Below, piece by piece: positions 2,358 through 59,748 of a stretch of 64,000 nucleotides of DNA. Every line of letters begins with the position of its first letter. Position 1 is the first letter of the stretch. This DNA comes from Natrialbaceae archaeon AArc-T1-2. GTDB lineage: Archaea > Halobacteriota > Halobacteria > Halobacteriales > Natrialbaceae. Under the pieces are notes generated by a model, which searched no databases, had not been told where the DNA came from, and was given only the letters and a program-made list of their open reading frames with translations. The position numbers and the translations under genes are program-made. The stretch spans positions 62,001 to 126,000 of the forward strand of contig NZ_CP127175.1 of NCBI RefSeq assembly GCF_030273315.1, given 5' to 3'.

Positions 2358-2741
2358 ATGAAGACCACACGGCATGCAACCTACAACCTCAACTACCACA
2401 TAGTGTGGCTCCCGAAGTACCGCAACCCGGTACTGACGGGAGAGGTTGCCGACCGTGTTGAATCCATCCTCCACGAAATTGCCGACGAGAAAGGCTTGGA
2501 CATTCAGAACCTGACGGTTCAGCCCGACCACGTTCACCTGTTCGTCAGTAGCCCGCCCAAACACAGCCCATCACTGCTCGCCAACTGGTTCAAGGGCATT
2601 TCCTCACGGAAATATAACCACCGCCACGCCGACCACGACGGCGAGAAAATCCGGTGGGCACGTGGCTACTACGCCGGAACAGCCGGGCACGTCTCCAGCG
2701 AAACTGTCGAGAACTACATCAACCGTTGCCAGAACTCATGA
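2358..2741 (+). CDS. tnpA: IS200/IS605 TnpA, Y1 HUH transposase
   Basis: The 127-residue protein has the family's usual length. It starts MKTTRHATYNLNYHIVWLPKYR, carries the HUH motif as DHVHLFVS near residue 58, and ends in the helix that carries the catalytic tyrosine (SSETVENYINRCQ). In the family this enzyme excises and inserts single-stranded circles using the hairpins at the element ends. The stop codon at 2739-2741 lies in the loop and arm of a strong hairpin (2728-2749), and tnpB follows with its own ribosome site. The frame is intact, so the element could be active. Confidence 0.92.
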   Translation: MKTTRHATYNLNYHIVWLPKYRNPVLTGEVADRVESILHEIADEKGLDIQNLTVQPDHVHLFVSSPPKHSPSLLANWFKGISSRKYNHRHADHDGEKIRWARGYYAGTAGHVSSETVENYINRCQNS

Positions 2742-2773
2742 GTTCTGGCAGCCCGCCAGATGTAATCTGGCGA
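2728..2773 (+). repeat. Twin-hairpin sequence between tnpA and tnpB
   Basis: Two perfect hairpins are adjacent: a 10-bp stem with a 2-nt loop (2728-2749) and an 8-bp stem with a 3-nt loop (2754-2772), separated by AGCC and followed by ACGAC. The tnpA stop is inside the first hairpin. The architecture resembles the twin-hairpin inserts at 3322-3369 and 58867-58917. It may instead be a normal regulatory feature of this IS. Confidence 0.5.
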
Positions 2774-2793
2774 CGACACAAGGAGGCCGAAGC

Positions 2794-45287: not shown

Positions 45288-46393
45288 TCAAGATAACTTT
45301 TGCAAATATAGGCTGAGGAACTGATCGATCCAGGACTTGGCGAATCCAAGTCGCTCAGTGAGGGTGTTGAAGAGACGGCGAGCGAGAGTGCGGAACGCGC
45401 TCTCGCTCGCCACGACGATTGGCGAGGCATTGCGTTTGAGCACTTTCCAGACCTGCTCGATTGGGTTGGGATGCGGTGAGCCAACCGGAGGAAAAACGAG
45501 ATCGCTACCGAGTTGATGTGCGCGCTTGCGCGTGTGTTCACAGATGTGAGAAGAGAAGTTGTCCAAGACGAGCAGAATCCGCGTTCCCGGATTCTGCTCG
45601 CGGACCTCCTCCAGTAGCGCACAGATGCTCTCTTTCGATTGATCATCAGGGAACGTCAGGACACTTTCGCCGTTGAGCGTATAGCATCCGACCGCTGGTT
45701 CGTCAAGCTTCACCAGCGGTCGTTCCAGTGTCGGGTCATCGACGTACCACAGTCGATGTGAATTGTCGTATGGTTGCGGATGCGAAGCGTCACAAAAACC
45801 GACGACAGTCCCCCCATCTGTACAGATATCGTCGTCGAGAACCCAGCCTTCGTCCTCATCATCAGGACGCTTGTTATGTGCTGTCTCTGTTTCCTCGTCG
45901 AACGCGTCTGCGACGCGTTCTTCGAGGATTTCATCTGCATTTTCTGGCCGTGAAGGACGTTTTGGACGTGGTTTAGCGTAGGACAGTCCGAGATTCCGGA
46001 GGAATCGACCGAGATAATCCAGATGGTACTCAACATCGAACTCCTCGTCTAAGAGCTGATGAACTTCCTGTGCTTTCCAGGGCTGTCCCTCTCTGAGGAG
46101 TTCTAGAAGACGCTCTTGTTCCTCTTCACCGAGCTTCGGGGGCCTTCCGCCCCCGAAGTTCGGTGTCAACTGACCAAGTCCGCCATCATTCCATCGACGT
46201 GCCCAGCGACTTCCAGTTGAGGCAGGTTTGCCAACATCGTCGGCTGCTTCCTCGTACGTTGCGCCCTTGTAGAGACGTTTGACAAAGGTAAGCCGTTGAT
46301 GACCTTTGGATCGTCTGCTTCGTCCAGCAGACGATCCAACTCCTCATCACTCAGATGACGAACGAGTTCTCCCCGCCGGTCTCCTCCCATCAC
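45288..46393 (-). pseudogene. IS630-type transposase with one frameshift
   Basis: From ATG 46393 the frame reads MGGDRRGELVRHLSDEELDRL. It then shifts near 46300 (a missing base before the codons for HQRLTFVKRLYKGATYEE) and continues from there to the stop at 45288. DDE residues are in VLDDDICTDGG, LLVLDNFSSH and PNPIEQVWKVL. Programmed frameshifting is possible in IS630 elements, but here the event is more simply a lost base. A decayed relative lies at 23295-23735. Possible inverted ends (CTGCTTTGG at 45271-45279; its complement ending at 46446) are imperfect. The element may still be mobilised in trans. Confidence 0.75.
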
Positions 46394-46434: not shown

Positions 46435-46800
46435 ATGCCAAAGCAGTTTGAAGACGAAGAGGTACGACGTTTTACCTCATAGAAAACATATTCGGCTCTG
46501 TTTCGGTATCCGTGGCGTTCGTATCTGAAATAGAGGTCGTGTCGCAAGCCAGCGTCTTTCAGCGAGTGTGAGCATCGATGAGAAACACAGCGTCGTCAAC
46601 GTCGTGTTTCTTTCGGAGTTCAGCAAAGAAAGAAGGAGCAATCACCTTGTTTGATGTCGGTTCAAGCTTTGTATAGAGTAATTCGCTTGTCTCGGCATCA
46701 ACAGCGGCGTACTGCCAGTATTGCTCGTCATTGAGTCGGATCACAGTCTCATCGACCGCAACGTGATCCGGACTGCATCCATCTTCGGGCTGTAAACCAT
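46435..46800 (-). pseudogene. Decayed IS6-type transposase
   Basis: The minus-strand frame reads GCSPDHVAVDETVIRLND, EQYWQYAAVDAETSELLY and ELRKKHDVDDAVFLIDAHTR, then a frameshift and RHDLYFRYERHGYRNRAEYVF. The DDE pattern is partly present. N- and C-terminal parts are missing. It abuts the IS630-type element, whose right end lies near 46446. Confidence 0.65.
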
Positions 46801-47041: not shown

Positions 47042-47775
47042 ATGCAACTCGCAGACCTGCTCAGAAAAACGTTAGACGTGGACTGTGATGAGGTTTGGGA
47101 ATGAGCGTACCCCGACACCCGTGCGGGTGTTCGGGGTACGTCTTCATTCGATGGGGCTGTCGCTTCGAGAAGTCGAAGCTGTCCTTGGGTGGCTCGGCGT
47201 GGATCGGTGCCATCAGGCGATTTGGAACTGGACTCATACGCTTTCAGAATCACAGGAAGGCCCACCCACGGCGGAGCCGTCGCGGGTCGCTGTTGACGAG
47301 ACACAGATCGAAGTTGACGGTGAAGAGAAGTGGTTGTACGCTGCGATCGACACGGAGTCAAAGCTGCTCTTGGAAGCTGACGTGTACAGCCGCCGCGGGC
47401 GTGACCCCGCGGCGTTAACGAGAGCGACGCTCTCGTTCGCACATCAGAAATCTTTGATTTCTGAGGACGGCGTTCCTTCACCGACTCACTGAGAAACACG
47501 ACGTCTCTGAAACCGAATTTTTGGTTGACGGCGGTGGATATCTAACTGCCCTGCTTCGCCACGAGTTGAACGGTCACCTCAACTACAGCGAGCGGAACCA
47601 CATCGAGAAATGGTTCCAAACTGTCTCAATGCGGATAGACCGCTTTCATTCCTTCTGGCGGGGCAGTTCAGCCAGTGTTCGTCGCTGGTTGAGACGCTTC
47701 AGACACCACTATAACTGTGATCGGCCGAATCAGGCGTTAGATGGACGGACGCCTGCCGAGGAGGTGTGGAACTAG
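47042..47775 (+). pseudogene. IS6-type transposase broken by a deletion and a hairpin insert
   Basis: Translation starts MQLADLLRKTLDVDCDEVWE, then loses about two bases at 47099. It continues NERTPTPVRVFGVRLHSMGL, RVAVDETQIEVDGEEKWLYA and AAIDTESKLLLEADVYSRRG up to 47416, where 58 bases intervene. After them come HRLTEKHDVS, LVDGGGYLTALLRHELNG and, at the end, NQALDGRTPAEEVWN. DDE residues Asp (VDETQIE), Asp (LVDGGGYL) and Glu (ERNHIEKWF) remain in place. It is inactive as it stands, but ends are intact, so mobilisation in trans is possible. Confidence 0.8.
47411..47474 (+). repeat. 58-bp twin-hairpin insert with 6-bp direct repeats in the IS6 transposase
   Basis: GGCGTT occurs at 47411-47416 and 47469-47474. 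Between them are a 10-bp stem with 1-nt loop (47417-47437) and an 8-bp stem with 3-nt loop (47445-47463), separated by CGCACAT. Removing 58 bases restores the transposase codons across the junction. Confidence 0.6.
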
Positions 47776-57630: not shown

Positions 57631-59748
57631 ATGAATGAGCATAACCTAGATGCTAACAAGATGGTCCATAAACCGGACCAAGAGTTCATCGAGTCGACGA
57701 ACGTCTACGCGTTCATGCAGGAGTACGGCATCGACGACTACGACGAACTCATCGAGCGCACCACGACGGAGGTCGACGGCGTCGACGAAAGCGGCGTTGA
57801 CTGGTTCTGGGACGAGCTAGTCGACTACCTCGGGATCGAGTTCGACGAGGAGTACGACGAGGTCAGAGACGACAGCGAGAGCGAGACACGAAGCGTCTCA
57901 GAGGGTGCGAGCGATGAACCCGCGAGCCGCGGGGGGCCACAGTTCACCGACTGGTATCCCGGTGGGAAGATAAACATCGCCCACAACGTCCTGGATCGCC
58001 ACGCCGACCTCGAGGCGGAGACCCGAAACAGGGTCGCCTGCATCTGGGAGGGCGAAGACGGCGAGGTTCGGGAGGTAACCTACCACGACCTGCATCGCCA
58101 GTCGAACAAGGTAGCAAACGCCTTAGAAGAGCGGGGCGTCGAGACGGGCGATACGGTTGCACTCTACATGCCGATGGTGCCCGAGGTCGTCTCGATCCTC
58201 TATGGCTGTTTCAAAGTCGGTGCAATCGTGGTACCAATCTTCTCGGGTTTCGGCGTCGAGGCTGCCGCGACGCGGATCGAAGACAGTGAGCCCGCCGTCT
58301 TGTTCACCGGCGACGGCTTCTACCGCCGGGGAGACCACGTCCTGTTGAAGGAGTCGGCAGACGAGGCTATCGACGAGGCGGGCCACGTCGAACACACGAT
58401 CGTCGTCGATCGCCTCGGTGCCAGCGACGACGACGTCGACCTCGAGATTCCCTGGACCGACCGCGACGAGTGGTGGGCCGAGGCCGTCGAGCGCCAGGAC
58501 GACGCCTACGAAACGGCGTCCCTGCCCTCGGACCAGGAGTCGATGTTGCTGTACTCCTCGGGGACGACCGGCAAGCCGAAGGGGATCGTCCACACCCACG
58601 CCGGCGCATTGATGCAGTGTGCCAAGGAGGTGTACTTCGGCTTCGATCTGAAACCCTCGGACCGCTTTTTCTGGGTGTCGGACATCGGCTGGATGATGGG
58701 GCCGTGGACGCTCATCGGCACCCACACCTTCGGCGGGACGGCGTTCATGTACGAGGGCGCGCCCGACCATCCCGAACCCGACCGATTCTGGGAGATGATC
58801 GACCGCCACGCGATCACCCAGTTCGGCATCTCGCCGACCGCCATTCGGGCGCTTCGCAAACACGGCACGCGTCAGACTACGTCTGACGAGCCATCCGGCT
58901 CCGGAGAAGCCGGAGACGACGAGTGGGTCGAGGGCCACGACCTCTCCTCGCTACGCCTGCTCGGCTCGACCGGCGAACCCTGGGATCCCGAGTCCTGGCA
59001 GTGGTTCTACGAGAACGTCGGCAACGAGGAGACACCGATCATCAACATCTCTGGCGGCACCGAGATCTGTGGCTGTTTCCTCATGCCGATGCCGATCCAG
59101 CCGCTGAAACCCTGCACCCTCGGCGGCCCCGGACTCGGAATGGACGTCGACATCGTCGACTCCTCGGGCGAGTCCATCGCCGACACGAACGAACGGGGCT
59201 TTCTCGTCGCGCGTGACTCCTGTCCGTCGATGACCAAGTCGCTGTGGTCCGGCGACGAACGCTACCTGGAAGAGTACTGGTCCTCCTGGGAGAATCTCTG
59301 GGACCACGGCGACTGGGCACAGAAAGACGAGGACGGATTCTGGTTCCTCCACGGCCGGGCCGACGACGCCCTCAACGTGGCAGGTCGGAAGGTCGGCCCC
59401 GCCGAGATCGAAGGCGTGCTCATCGACCACGACGCGGTCAACCAGGCCGCCGCCGTCGGCGTTCCCGACGAGACGACGGGCACTGCCGTCGTCGCCTACG
59501 TCATCTTAGAGGAGAGCGAGGAACCGTCCGAGGAGCTCCGCGAGGAACTGCGCGCCCAGGTCGGCGAGGAACACGGCAAGCCGTTTCGCCCCCGCGAGCT
59601 CCTCTTCGTCGACGAGTTTCCGAAAACGCAATCCGGCAAAGTCATTCGCCGGGCGATCGAAGCCGCCTACACCGGCGAAGACCTGGGAGATCTCTCGAGT
59701 CTCGAAAACCCCGACGCCCTGGCGGCACTGAATGATACATGTAGCTAG
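57631..59748 (+). CDS. Acetyl-CoA-synthetase-like AMP-forming ligase
   Basis: 705 residues. ANL motifs: LLYSSGTTGKPKGIVHTHAG (A3), ISGGTEICGCFLMPMPIQPL, FLHGRADDALNVAGRKVGP (A8) and the catalytic Lys in KTQSGKVIRRAIEAAY (A10). The N-terminal 90 residues (to about SETRSVSEGASD) are an acidic extension before the ACS-type core QFTDWYPGGKINIAHNVLDRH. A 17-residue in-frame insert (TRQTTSDEPSGSGEAGD) interrupts the core after residue 412 and is encoded by a twin hairpin (58867-58917). High GC. It activates acetate, propionate or a related short acid; close haloarchaeal homologues are called acetate- or propionate-CoA ligases. Confidence 0.85.
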   Translation: MNEHNLDANKMVHKPDQEFIESTNVYAFMQEYGIDDYDELIERTTTEVDGVDESGVDWFWDELVDYLGIEFDEEYDEVRDDSESETRSVSEGASDEPASRGGPQFTDWYPGGKINIAHNVLDRHADLEAETRNRVACIWEGEDGEVREVTYHDLHRQSNKVANALEERGVETGDTVALYMPMVPEVVSILYGCFKVGAIVVPIFSGFGVEAAATRIEDSEPAVLFTGDGFYRRGDHVLLKESADEAIDEAGHVEHTIVVDRLGASDDDVDLEIPWTDRDEWWAEAVERQDDAYETASLPSDQESMLLYSSGTTGKPKGIVHTHAGALMQCAKEVYFGFDLKPSDRFFWVSDIGWMMGPWTLIGTHTFGGTAFMYEGAPDHPEPDRFWEMIDRHAITQFGISPTAIRALRKHGTRQTTSDEPSGSGEAGDDEWVEGHDLSSLRLLGSTGEPWDPESWQWFYENVGNEETPIINISGGTEICGCFLMPMPIQPLKPCTLGGPGLGMDVDIVDSSGESIADTNERGFLVARDSCPSMTKSLWSGDERYLEEYWSSWENLWDHGDWAQKDEDGFWFLHGRADDALNVAGRKVGPAEIEGVLIDHDAVNQAAAVGVPDETTGTAVVAYVILEESEEPSEELREELRAQVGEEHGKPFRPRELLFVDEFPKTQSGKVIRRAIEAAYTGEDLGDLSSLENPDALAALNDTCS
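58867..58917 (+). repeat. 51-bp in-frame twin-hairpin insert in the CoA ligase
   Basis: Two hairpins: CGTCAGAC-TAC-GTCTGACG (58870-58888) and TCCGGCT-7 nt-AGCCGGA (58894-58914), with AGCCA between them. The 17 codons fall between KHG and DEWVEGHDLSS, which I expect to be adjacent in homologues. The first 26 bases resemble those of 3322-3347. Confidence 0.6.

Follow-up and report, generated by a model that had tools for sequence, protein, structure and literature searches.

Organization of the interrupted IS6 locus

The window analyzed here is a 64,000-nucleotide stretch of contig 2 of Natrialbaceae archaeon AArc-T1-2 (genome G000). It contains an IS6-type transposase gene, 47085-47775, which is split by a frameshift. 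The disrupted N-terminal reading frame has a weak match to the Pfam family DDE_Tnp_IS240 (E 7e-5, 23.4 bits, below the cut-off of 27), in agreement with the DNA matches to intact IS6 copies. Beside the interrupted gene are two reverse-strand reading frames, 45288-46169 and 46559-46744, which we take to resemble an IS630-type transposase and a second IS6-like remnant. The features at the interruption, together with two further inserts in the window, are as follows.

47085-47775, forward strand: IS6-type transposase gene interrupted by the element (reading frames 47085-47492 and 47521-47775)
47391-47414, forward strand: native IS6 hairpin CGCCGCGGG...CCCGCGGCG, ending exactly at the insertion point and kept in uninterrupted copies
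47411-47414, forward strand: native target end GGCG, 5' of the insertion point; CG here in 128/135 copies (a share biased upward, see below)
47415-47469, forward strand: 55-bp element TTAACG...GAGGACG, delimited against uninterrupted IS6 copies; ends ambiguous by 2 bases (CG)
47417-47437, forward strand: hairpin 1, AACGAGAGCG A CGCTCTCGTT; 10-bp stem and 1-nt loop as drawn, with compensating changes in the family
47438-47443, forward strand: A-type spacer CGCACA between the hairpins
47444-47464, forward strand: hairpin 2, TCAGAAATC TTT GATTTCTGA; 9-bp stem, 3-nt loop
47465-47469, forward strand: right end GGACG (reverse complement CGTCC, a CGTC tag); same ending in 111/135 copies
2726-2775, forward strand: second member, a 50-bp twin hairpin at the tnpA/tnpB junction of an IS200/IS605 element (model R2, E 1.9e-5)
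58867-58917, forward strand: third, more divergent member, a 51-bp in-frame twin hairpin in an acetyl-CoA synthetase-like gene, 57631-59748 (model R2, E 0.011)

The insertion leaves no 6-bp target duplication

The original prediction for this locus was of a twin-hairpin insertion that breaks the IS6 transposase frame, and uninterrupted IS6 copies bear this out. It further placed a 58-bp insertion between 6-bp target repeats. The repeat, GGCGTT, is indeed exact and stands on either side of the two hairpins, at 47411-47416 and 47469-47474 (58 bp from start to start; 7 bp long if counted as CGGCGTT). Both hairpins are also present, the first with the expected 10-bp stem and the second with a stem of 9 rather than 8 bp. 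The extra DNA relative to the uninterrupted copies is, however, 55 bp (47415-47469): the native site reads CCCCGCGGCG/GCGTTCC, and the window has TTAACG...GAGGACG at the slash. In a set of 32 IS6 rows, 27 of the 28 that are empty at this junction (GCG/GCGTT) cross it with no nucleotide missing or extra, and the empty rows are 3 nt longer than the empty site that the prediction implied. At the other of the two IS6 sites 16 of 19 empty rows are exact, several of the 19 being strongly divergent there.

Comparison with uninterrupted relatives thus leaves the insertion standing and reduces the GGCGTT repeat to a coincidence of native bases and element ends. On the left, native GGCG meets the conserved TT of the element; on the right, the last G of the element meets native GCGTT. 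Removal of 58 bp only appeared to restore the reading frame, because 58 bp and 55 bp differ by exactly one codon. If a 58-bp insertion had duplicated a 6-bp target site, the exact repeat would be accounted for, but this account is excluded by the empty sites, which join without the proposed duplication, and is at odds with left tetranucleotides that vary (GGCG, GACG, AGCG) beside a right end that is constantly GACG; we give it practically no weight. Duplication at the target is none, or at most 2 bp (CG), since both the native side and the element end carry CG, so that 55 inserted bp with nothing duplicated look the same as 53 inserted bp plus a 2-bp duplication. A classical MITE, with terminal inverted repeats and a target-site duplication, was rejected on finding no duplication beyond this CG.

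Distribution and structure of the family

We built a covariance model, R2, from 29 seeds, and its E-values are rough. It scores 47411-47469 at 84.2 bits, the window copy being one of its own seeds. Similar hairpin pairs prove to be widespread, as the original prediction had suggested looking for: at E<=1e-4 the model matches 134 of 149 relatives, 120 of the 127 more complete ones and 56 of 59 genera, with numbers per genome reaching at least 37, and in G000 itself it finds six places at E<=2.6e-8. With blastn, the site plus ~60 bp on each side matched 97 of the 149 relatives, many over the element alone. The pattern CGTTNACGAGAN{4,13}TCTCGT matched 142 times, in 51 of 90 genomes, and a version that also required CAGAA at hairpin 2 matched 107 times, in 43 of the 90; the reversed control of the former gave 0 in 90, and that of the latter 0. 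An exact 19-mer occurs in at least 120 stretches of the genome_contigs collection, and among the 80 matches listed the carriers have haloarchaeal names, save one "Euryarchaeota archaeon". Relatives of the element lie on plasmids of Haloferax mediterranei and Natronomonas pharaonis, and 36 of 72,556 records in a plasmid collection match, all 36 named for haloarchaeal genera. The exact 19-mer had 0 matches in viral_contigs and none in phages. No Rfam family matched the elements in nine loci; outside the elements, L029 matched sot0042, and three further hits, to families from humans or animals, were weak.

The layout shared by the family is CGT(T/C)-hairpin-spacer-hairpin-GACG, mostly 50-60 bp long. 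With slashes at the insertion boundaries its anatomy is CG/TT(N)ACGAGA-loop-TCTCGT, spacer, (T/C)CAGAA-loop-TTCTG(A/G), GGACG/, and the spacers include TCGCACA, GCAGCCCA, GCGGCCCA, GCAGCACA and others. The inserts of the window had been predicted to share one layout with differing stems and spacers. This holds for the tnpA/tnpB-junction copy (R2 E 1.9e-5) and weakly for the acyl-CoA synthetase copy (E 0.011); the two spacer types, CGCACA and AGCC, do exist, but they intergrade. The structure is paired in 95.5% of cells of alignment A2, and both sides have changed in 7 of 17 pairs. Compensating change is seen in 53 cells, against 16.4 +/- 3.6 in shuffles, figures that are not probabilities because the seeds are related; slid controls give no more than 1. 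The loops are frequently seen in both orientations (TTC/GAA, TCC/GGA). One locus, L357, carries a symmetric version with the same hairpin at either end, and another, L345, ends in AACG in place of GGACG. The unit is thus most readily described as two paired, outward-facing hairpins with CGTY tags.

The 1.9-Mb genome G100, with at least 37 model matches, contains dense nests of several twin-hairpin subtypes (L119-L128), including one with a GGGCTC spacer. In G145 (L380, L381, L382, L384, L385) copies at one tnpB-like site have a 6-bp repeat within hairpin 2 and an insert of 63 rather than 57 bp, which is still divisible by three.

Empty sites and recurrence at single nucleotides

Exact empty sites were found at eight positions: IS6 sites 1 and 2, the tnpB-associated clusters 2, 3 and 17, cluster 8, the tnpA/tnpB junction and acs, the acetyl-CoA synthetase gene. 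At the tnpA/tnpB junction the empty homolog L114 reads AACCG/GCACAAGG, where the window has 50 extra bp, and L101 has a 59-bp element at the same place. In two IS605 elements (window 2726-2775 and L101:1446-1508) the stem ACTCATGAGT gives tnpA its stop codon; in homologous IS605 elements without the insert tnpA ends elsewhere.

On a tree of the 32 IS6 rows, built with the elements removed and with 12 of 29 inner branches left open for low support, the filled or empty state changes at least nine times at site 1 and at least four times at site 2. The IS6 copy of the window groups with L023, which is empty. At site 2 four copies are filled, each with a spacer form of its own (TCGCA, GCAGCA, GCACCC and GCAGCC types). 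The state changes and the variety of spacers at a single nucleotide point to repeated insertion there, or to frequent excision or conversion between IS copies, and part of the changes could be of the latter kinds. The filled rows carry CG by construction, because they were recognized with a pattern that starts with CG; among the empty rows at site 2, 16 of 28 also end in CG.

We curated the 191 model hits in the fetched loci (95 and 96). Removing those that overlapped a better hit by >20 nt left 158, and removing hits <46 nt and copies with identical flanks left 135, which form 50 clusters of insertion sites. CG stands on the left in 128 of the 135, a figure biased upward because CG is part of the search model and pattern; the left end is mostly CGTT, and the right end is GGACG in 111. 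Inserts are 42-60 bp long, most commonly 57 (42 copies), 56 (33) or 55 bp (31). IS6 cluster 0, with 19 copies, is a merger of two IS6 sites that L020 links. Comparison with L015 and L017 shows that the IS6 copy at L020:1509-1566 is flanked by site 1 sequence on its left and by site 2 sequence on its right, the arrangement expected from a deletion running from one element to another within a single transposase gene.

Most curated copies lie close to other mobile genes: 96 of the 135 are within 400 bp of tnpB (64), IS6 (24) or tnpA (8), a raw share, uncorrected for background, from loci that were in part chosen for IS6 or tnpA content. In the loci found by the model alone, 55 of 85 copies are near TnpB (37), IS6 (15) or TnpA (3), again a raw share. 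Among long reading frames that run through elements, the first ten all matched Cas12f1-like_TNB in Pfam, most of them OrfB_IS605 as well; in the second ten, two had weak matches to DDE_Tnp_IS240, three contained TnpB domains, one matched the AMP-binding enzyme and one Y1_Tnp, and three had no match. Neighboring elements, whether tandem or inverted, share the CG. Inverted back-to-back pairs of ~115 bp with a shared CG occur at L037:2217-2335, L107:1251-1365, L160:1441-1559 and L170:1551-1664. Two copies on contig 1 of G000 (901693-901753 and 2209599-2209659) have nearly identical flanks and are thus carried on a longer tnpB-containing repeat.

Part of the targets are also structured. Strong folds are commoner among joined 50-bp sites than among CG sites drawn at random from the same loci (50 clusters, median rank 0.28, KS p 5e-4), with a difference in stem length (p 8e-4), and IS6 site 2 is directly behind a perfect 9-bp native hairpin. 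Hairpin targeting is nevertheless at most partial, because many of the strongest folds are neighboring elements, and the large tnpB-associated clusters 1, 3 and 4 have no fold.

Inserts within reading frames

The acs insert adds 17 residues in G000, G005, G006 and G013 and is absent from 17 other orthologs (4 of 21 filled in total). The orthologs are at least 68% identical; two paralogs and one second match were set aside, and one partial hit did not extend over the insertion point. At the DNA level the junction is CACGGCG/...GGAGACG/AC in L302 against CACGGCGACGAGTGG in L303. Since its stems are unrelated to the seeds and its R2 E-value is 0.011, the kinship of this copy is judged from its layout, its length and the end rule. 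A second acetyl-CoA synthetase gene of G000 (G000:C1:857876-859963) is 98% identical to that of the window (residues 7-702 aligned), so that the in-frame insert is probably duplicated in this genome.

Of the 22 copies that fall inside tnpB coding matches, 15 are a multiple of three in length, and each of these 15 keeps the frame open across the element, compared with 1 of 18 copies in IS6 and 38 of 95 elsewhere. The Fisher test gives p 0.004 for TnpB against the rest and p 6e-5 for TnpB against IS6, values that overstate the effect because copies in one cluster share ancestry. Typical in-frame inserts read VHESDSSRAAHQKSPISED or VDETQSVSSAHQNAPRSGD. RPE-like residence, in frame in likely functional genes, is thus a property of a subset, namely 15 of the 22 tnpB-internal copies and acs.

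Relation to known elements

Several known repeats are likewise built from hairpins. REPINs are short mobile hairpin pairs that carry GTAG tags and are moved in trans by RAYT transposases; the hairpin pair is common to both systems, but the tags of the haloarchaeal element are CGTY. No gene flanked by the hairpins, as a RAYT gene would be, was seen in 30 loci. The double-hairpin elements of fungal mitochondria have two hairpins each and spread within the mitochondrial genome. We know of no exact CG rule for the Rickettsia palindromic elements. These are bacterial palindromic inserts kept in frame in genes (PMC10969869, PMC3733652) and, unlike the haloarchaeal element, are longer, ~150 bp in the example given in the review.

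The nearest published kinds are the bacterial CGTC-tagged REPs and the SMR-A repeats of Haloquadratum. As described by Di Nocera et al. (2013, PMC3733652), CGTC-tagged REPs and their dimers have paired tags facing outward, heterogeneous stems and no dedicated transposase, with some copies in frame in genes or inside palindromes; their stems of 8-9 bp start with two A-T pairs, and a CCA tail stands behind the hairpin. The haloarchaeal element resembles this description in the unpaired CGTC at one end (CGTCC on the other strand, 111/135) and in hairpins whose paired tags face outward. It differs in its mostly CGTT left tag, its fixed short spacer of ~5-9 bp and its archaeal host. Its stems also start otherwise (hairpin 1 with C-G/A-T/G-T, A-T, C-G; hairpin 2 with T-A/C-G, C-G), and TCGCACA, GCAGCCCA, GCGGCCCA and other spacers stand in the place of a CCA tail.

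SMR-A of Haloquadratum walsbyi are presented by Dyall-Smith et al. (2011, PMC3119063) as ~110-bp repeats with prominent terminal inverted repeats and no target duplication. In that account they form three sequence-unrelated families, lie mostly outside transposase reading frames and prefer IS605-type elements, their palindromes and PATEs; strain-specific insertions are known, and mobilization is called enigmatic. By comparison with this description, the element shares the haloarchaeal host, the non-coding nature, the duplication-free insertion and, in raw counts, the IS605-type preference (40 of 85 copies from model-only loci near tnpB or tnpA). It is unlike them in its size of mostly 50-60 bp, its two separate hairpins, the lack of long inverted ends and the many copies in reading frames. 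The ~115-bp inverted pairs could be related to the 110-bp SMR-A repeats. The idea that SMR-A are inverted pairs of the element was rejected, judged from the SMR-A description rather than SMR sequences, with no such pair among 20 of the 26 G145 copies or five Haloquadratum examples. The mismatches in SMR-A size and ends and in REP stem start and CCA tail make the haloarchaeal element a member of neither family. A literature search by title and abstract start found no description of these 50-60-bp elements, and the element letters retrieved unrelated papers only, among the matches listed.

Mode of movement and candidate enzymes

IS200/IS605 elements insert without target duplication behind a short oligonucleotide that resembles their own right end. 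The twin-hairpin elements have comparable features, namely insertion 3' of a fixed short target, no duplication and hairpins near both ends. The absence of duplication, a CG target like the element's own GACG end, the end hairpins and the head-to-tail and inverted nesting are the marks expected from IS200/IS605-type single-strand transposition. The twin-hairpin family is almost certainly a family of mobile elements, and by analogy a single-strand mode of movement is rather likely. Taking these together, we read 47415-47469 as a copy of a miniature, non-coding, non-autonomous, REP/REPIN-like mobile element, inserted behind CG as a folded strand with a transposase acting in trans, and assign this reading a probability of about 60%.

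In the mechanism that we envisage, the element would move as a folded single strand, its hairpins recognized by a trans-acting transposase, for which an HUH Y1 enzyme, for example the TnpA of a resident IS200/IS605 element or a relative, is the likeliest candidate. The enzyme would cut the strand behind the CG of the left flank and again behind the GACG that ends the element on the right, and the excised element would form a circle that is inserted behind another CG, often beside a hairpin. Most surviving copies would be found in IS elements, where they cost the host little and travel as passengers, and copies with lengths divisible by three could persist in genes as inserts of 17-20 residues.

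Y1 TnpA is the leading candidate for the enzyme, at slightly less than even odds. A Y1_Tnp match at family level is present in 18 of 34 chosen genomes. Y1 presence does not clearly separate genomes rich in the element from poor ones (10 of 14 against 7 of 19, Fisher p 0.08), and at E<=1e-5 there is no match in the element-rich G072 (23 copies), G048 (15) and G131 (11) or in the 63%-complete G108 (20). The copies in such genomes may be old or carried in, or another enzyme may act. As to types of Y1 element, only the IS200-type subclass 1.1 is given as observed in Archaea in PMC6006769. No gene flanked by separated element halves was found: among 33 occurrences of hairpin 1 in 30 loci none had a clear distant hairpin 2, and the four cases flagged by script proved by eye to be a missed twin, a symmetric pair and two decayed or truncated copies. 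A solitary hairpin 1 marking the end of an autonomous element was accordingly dropped, with no clear case in the 30 loci.

Three other accounts of the elements need to be weighed against this reading. The Y1-free genomes holding 11-23 copies are one reason to consider the same kind of element with a different mover, be it a tyrosine recombinase working on folded strands, another HUH protein or the transposase of another IS. The literature leaves room for such a mover, in that Dyall-Smith et al. (PMC3119063) call SMR mobilization enigmatic and Di Nocera et al. (PMC3733652) report CGTC REPs without a transposase. We think it a less probable option, because duplication-free insertion behind an end-like oligonucleotide best fits Y1 logic and the copies in Y1-free genomes may be old or carried in. 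A second account takes the element for a terminal-only remnant of an IS605-type transposon (a PATE): loss of the core would have brought the near-terminal palindromes of the two ends together as the two hairpins, and the TnpA of that transposon would move them. The precedent is a 52-bp, seemingly mobile, terminal-only derivative of a tnpB transposon described in PMC3119063, and the absence of target duplication and the size range agree with it. Such an origin is nonetheless improbable, given that the right-end hairpins beside tnpB (for example CCCGCCGTTTACGGCGGG) are unlike the element and are themselves targets, and that the 33 occurrences of hairpin 1 show no clear far-off partner. No full-length parent was seen in the 30 loci.

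The remaining account denies the element mobility of its own: the palindromic insert would be ancient, and amplification of its IS carriers, template switching and gene conversion would have spread it. Many copies do share one site within an IS lineage (the 19 in merged IS6 cluster 0, and those of G145), and loops occur in both orientations, as template switching would give. Yet some 50 site clusters, exact empty sites and insertions in acs and beside other elements require repeated insertion, and we regard an immobile insert as very improbable. Returning to the folded-strand reading, a more ambitious version of it is speculative: the elements would belong to a group-wide haloarchaeal REPIN-like system of symmetric or mixed CGTY-tagged pairs, moved by a novel single-strand transposase or recombinase, homing to CG beside hairpins in IS6 elements and in tnpB transposons, which encode RNA-guided nucleases, and supplying archaeal proteins to this day with in-frame acidic, serine-rich inserts.

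Implications

Neither of the two published kinds of mobile repeat, CGTC-tagged REPs and haloarchaeal SMRs, has an enzyme assigned to it. The exact empty sites, the simple target rule, the four types at one nucleotide and the culturable carriers of the element described here make the question of the moving enzyme testable in laboratory haloarchaea. The element is found across most of the sampled salt-loving archaea, mostly inside other jumping genes and occasionally as a short addition to a working protein. As such a palindromic element it adds residues to an archaeal metabolic enzyme and to TnpB nucleases.
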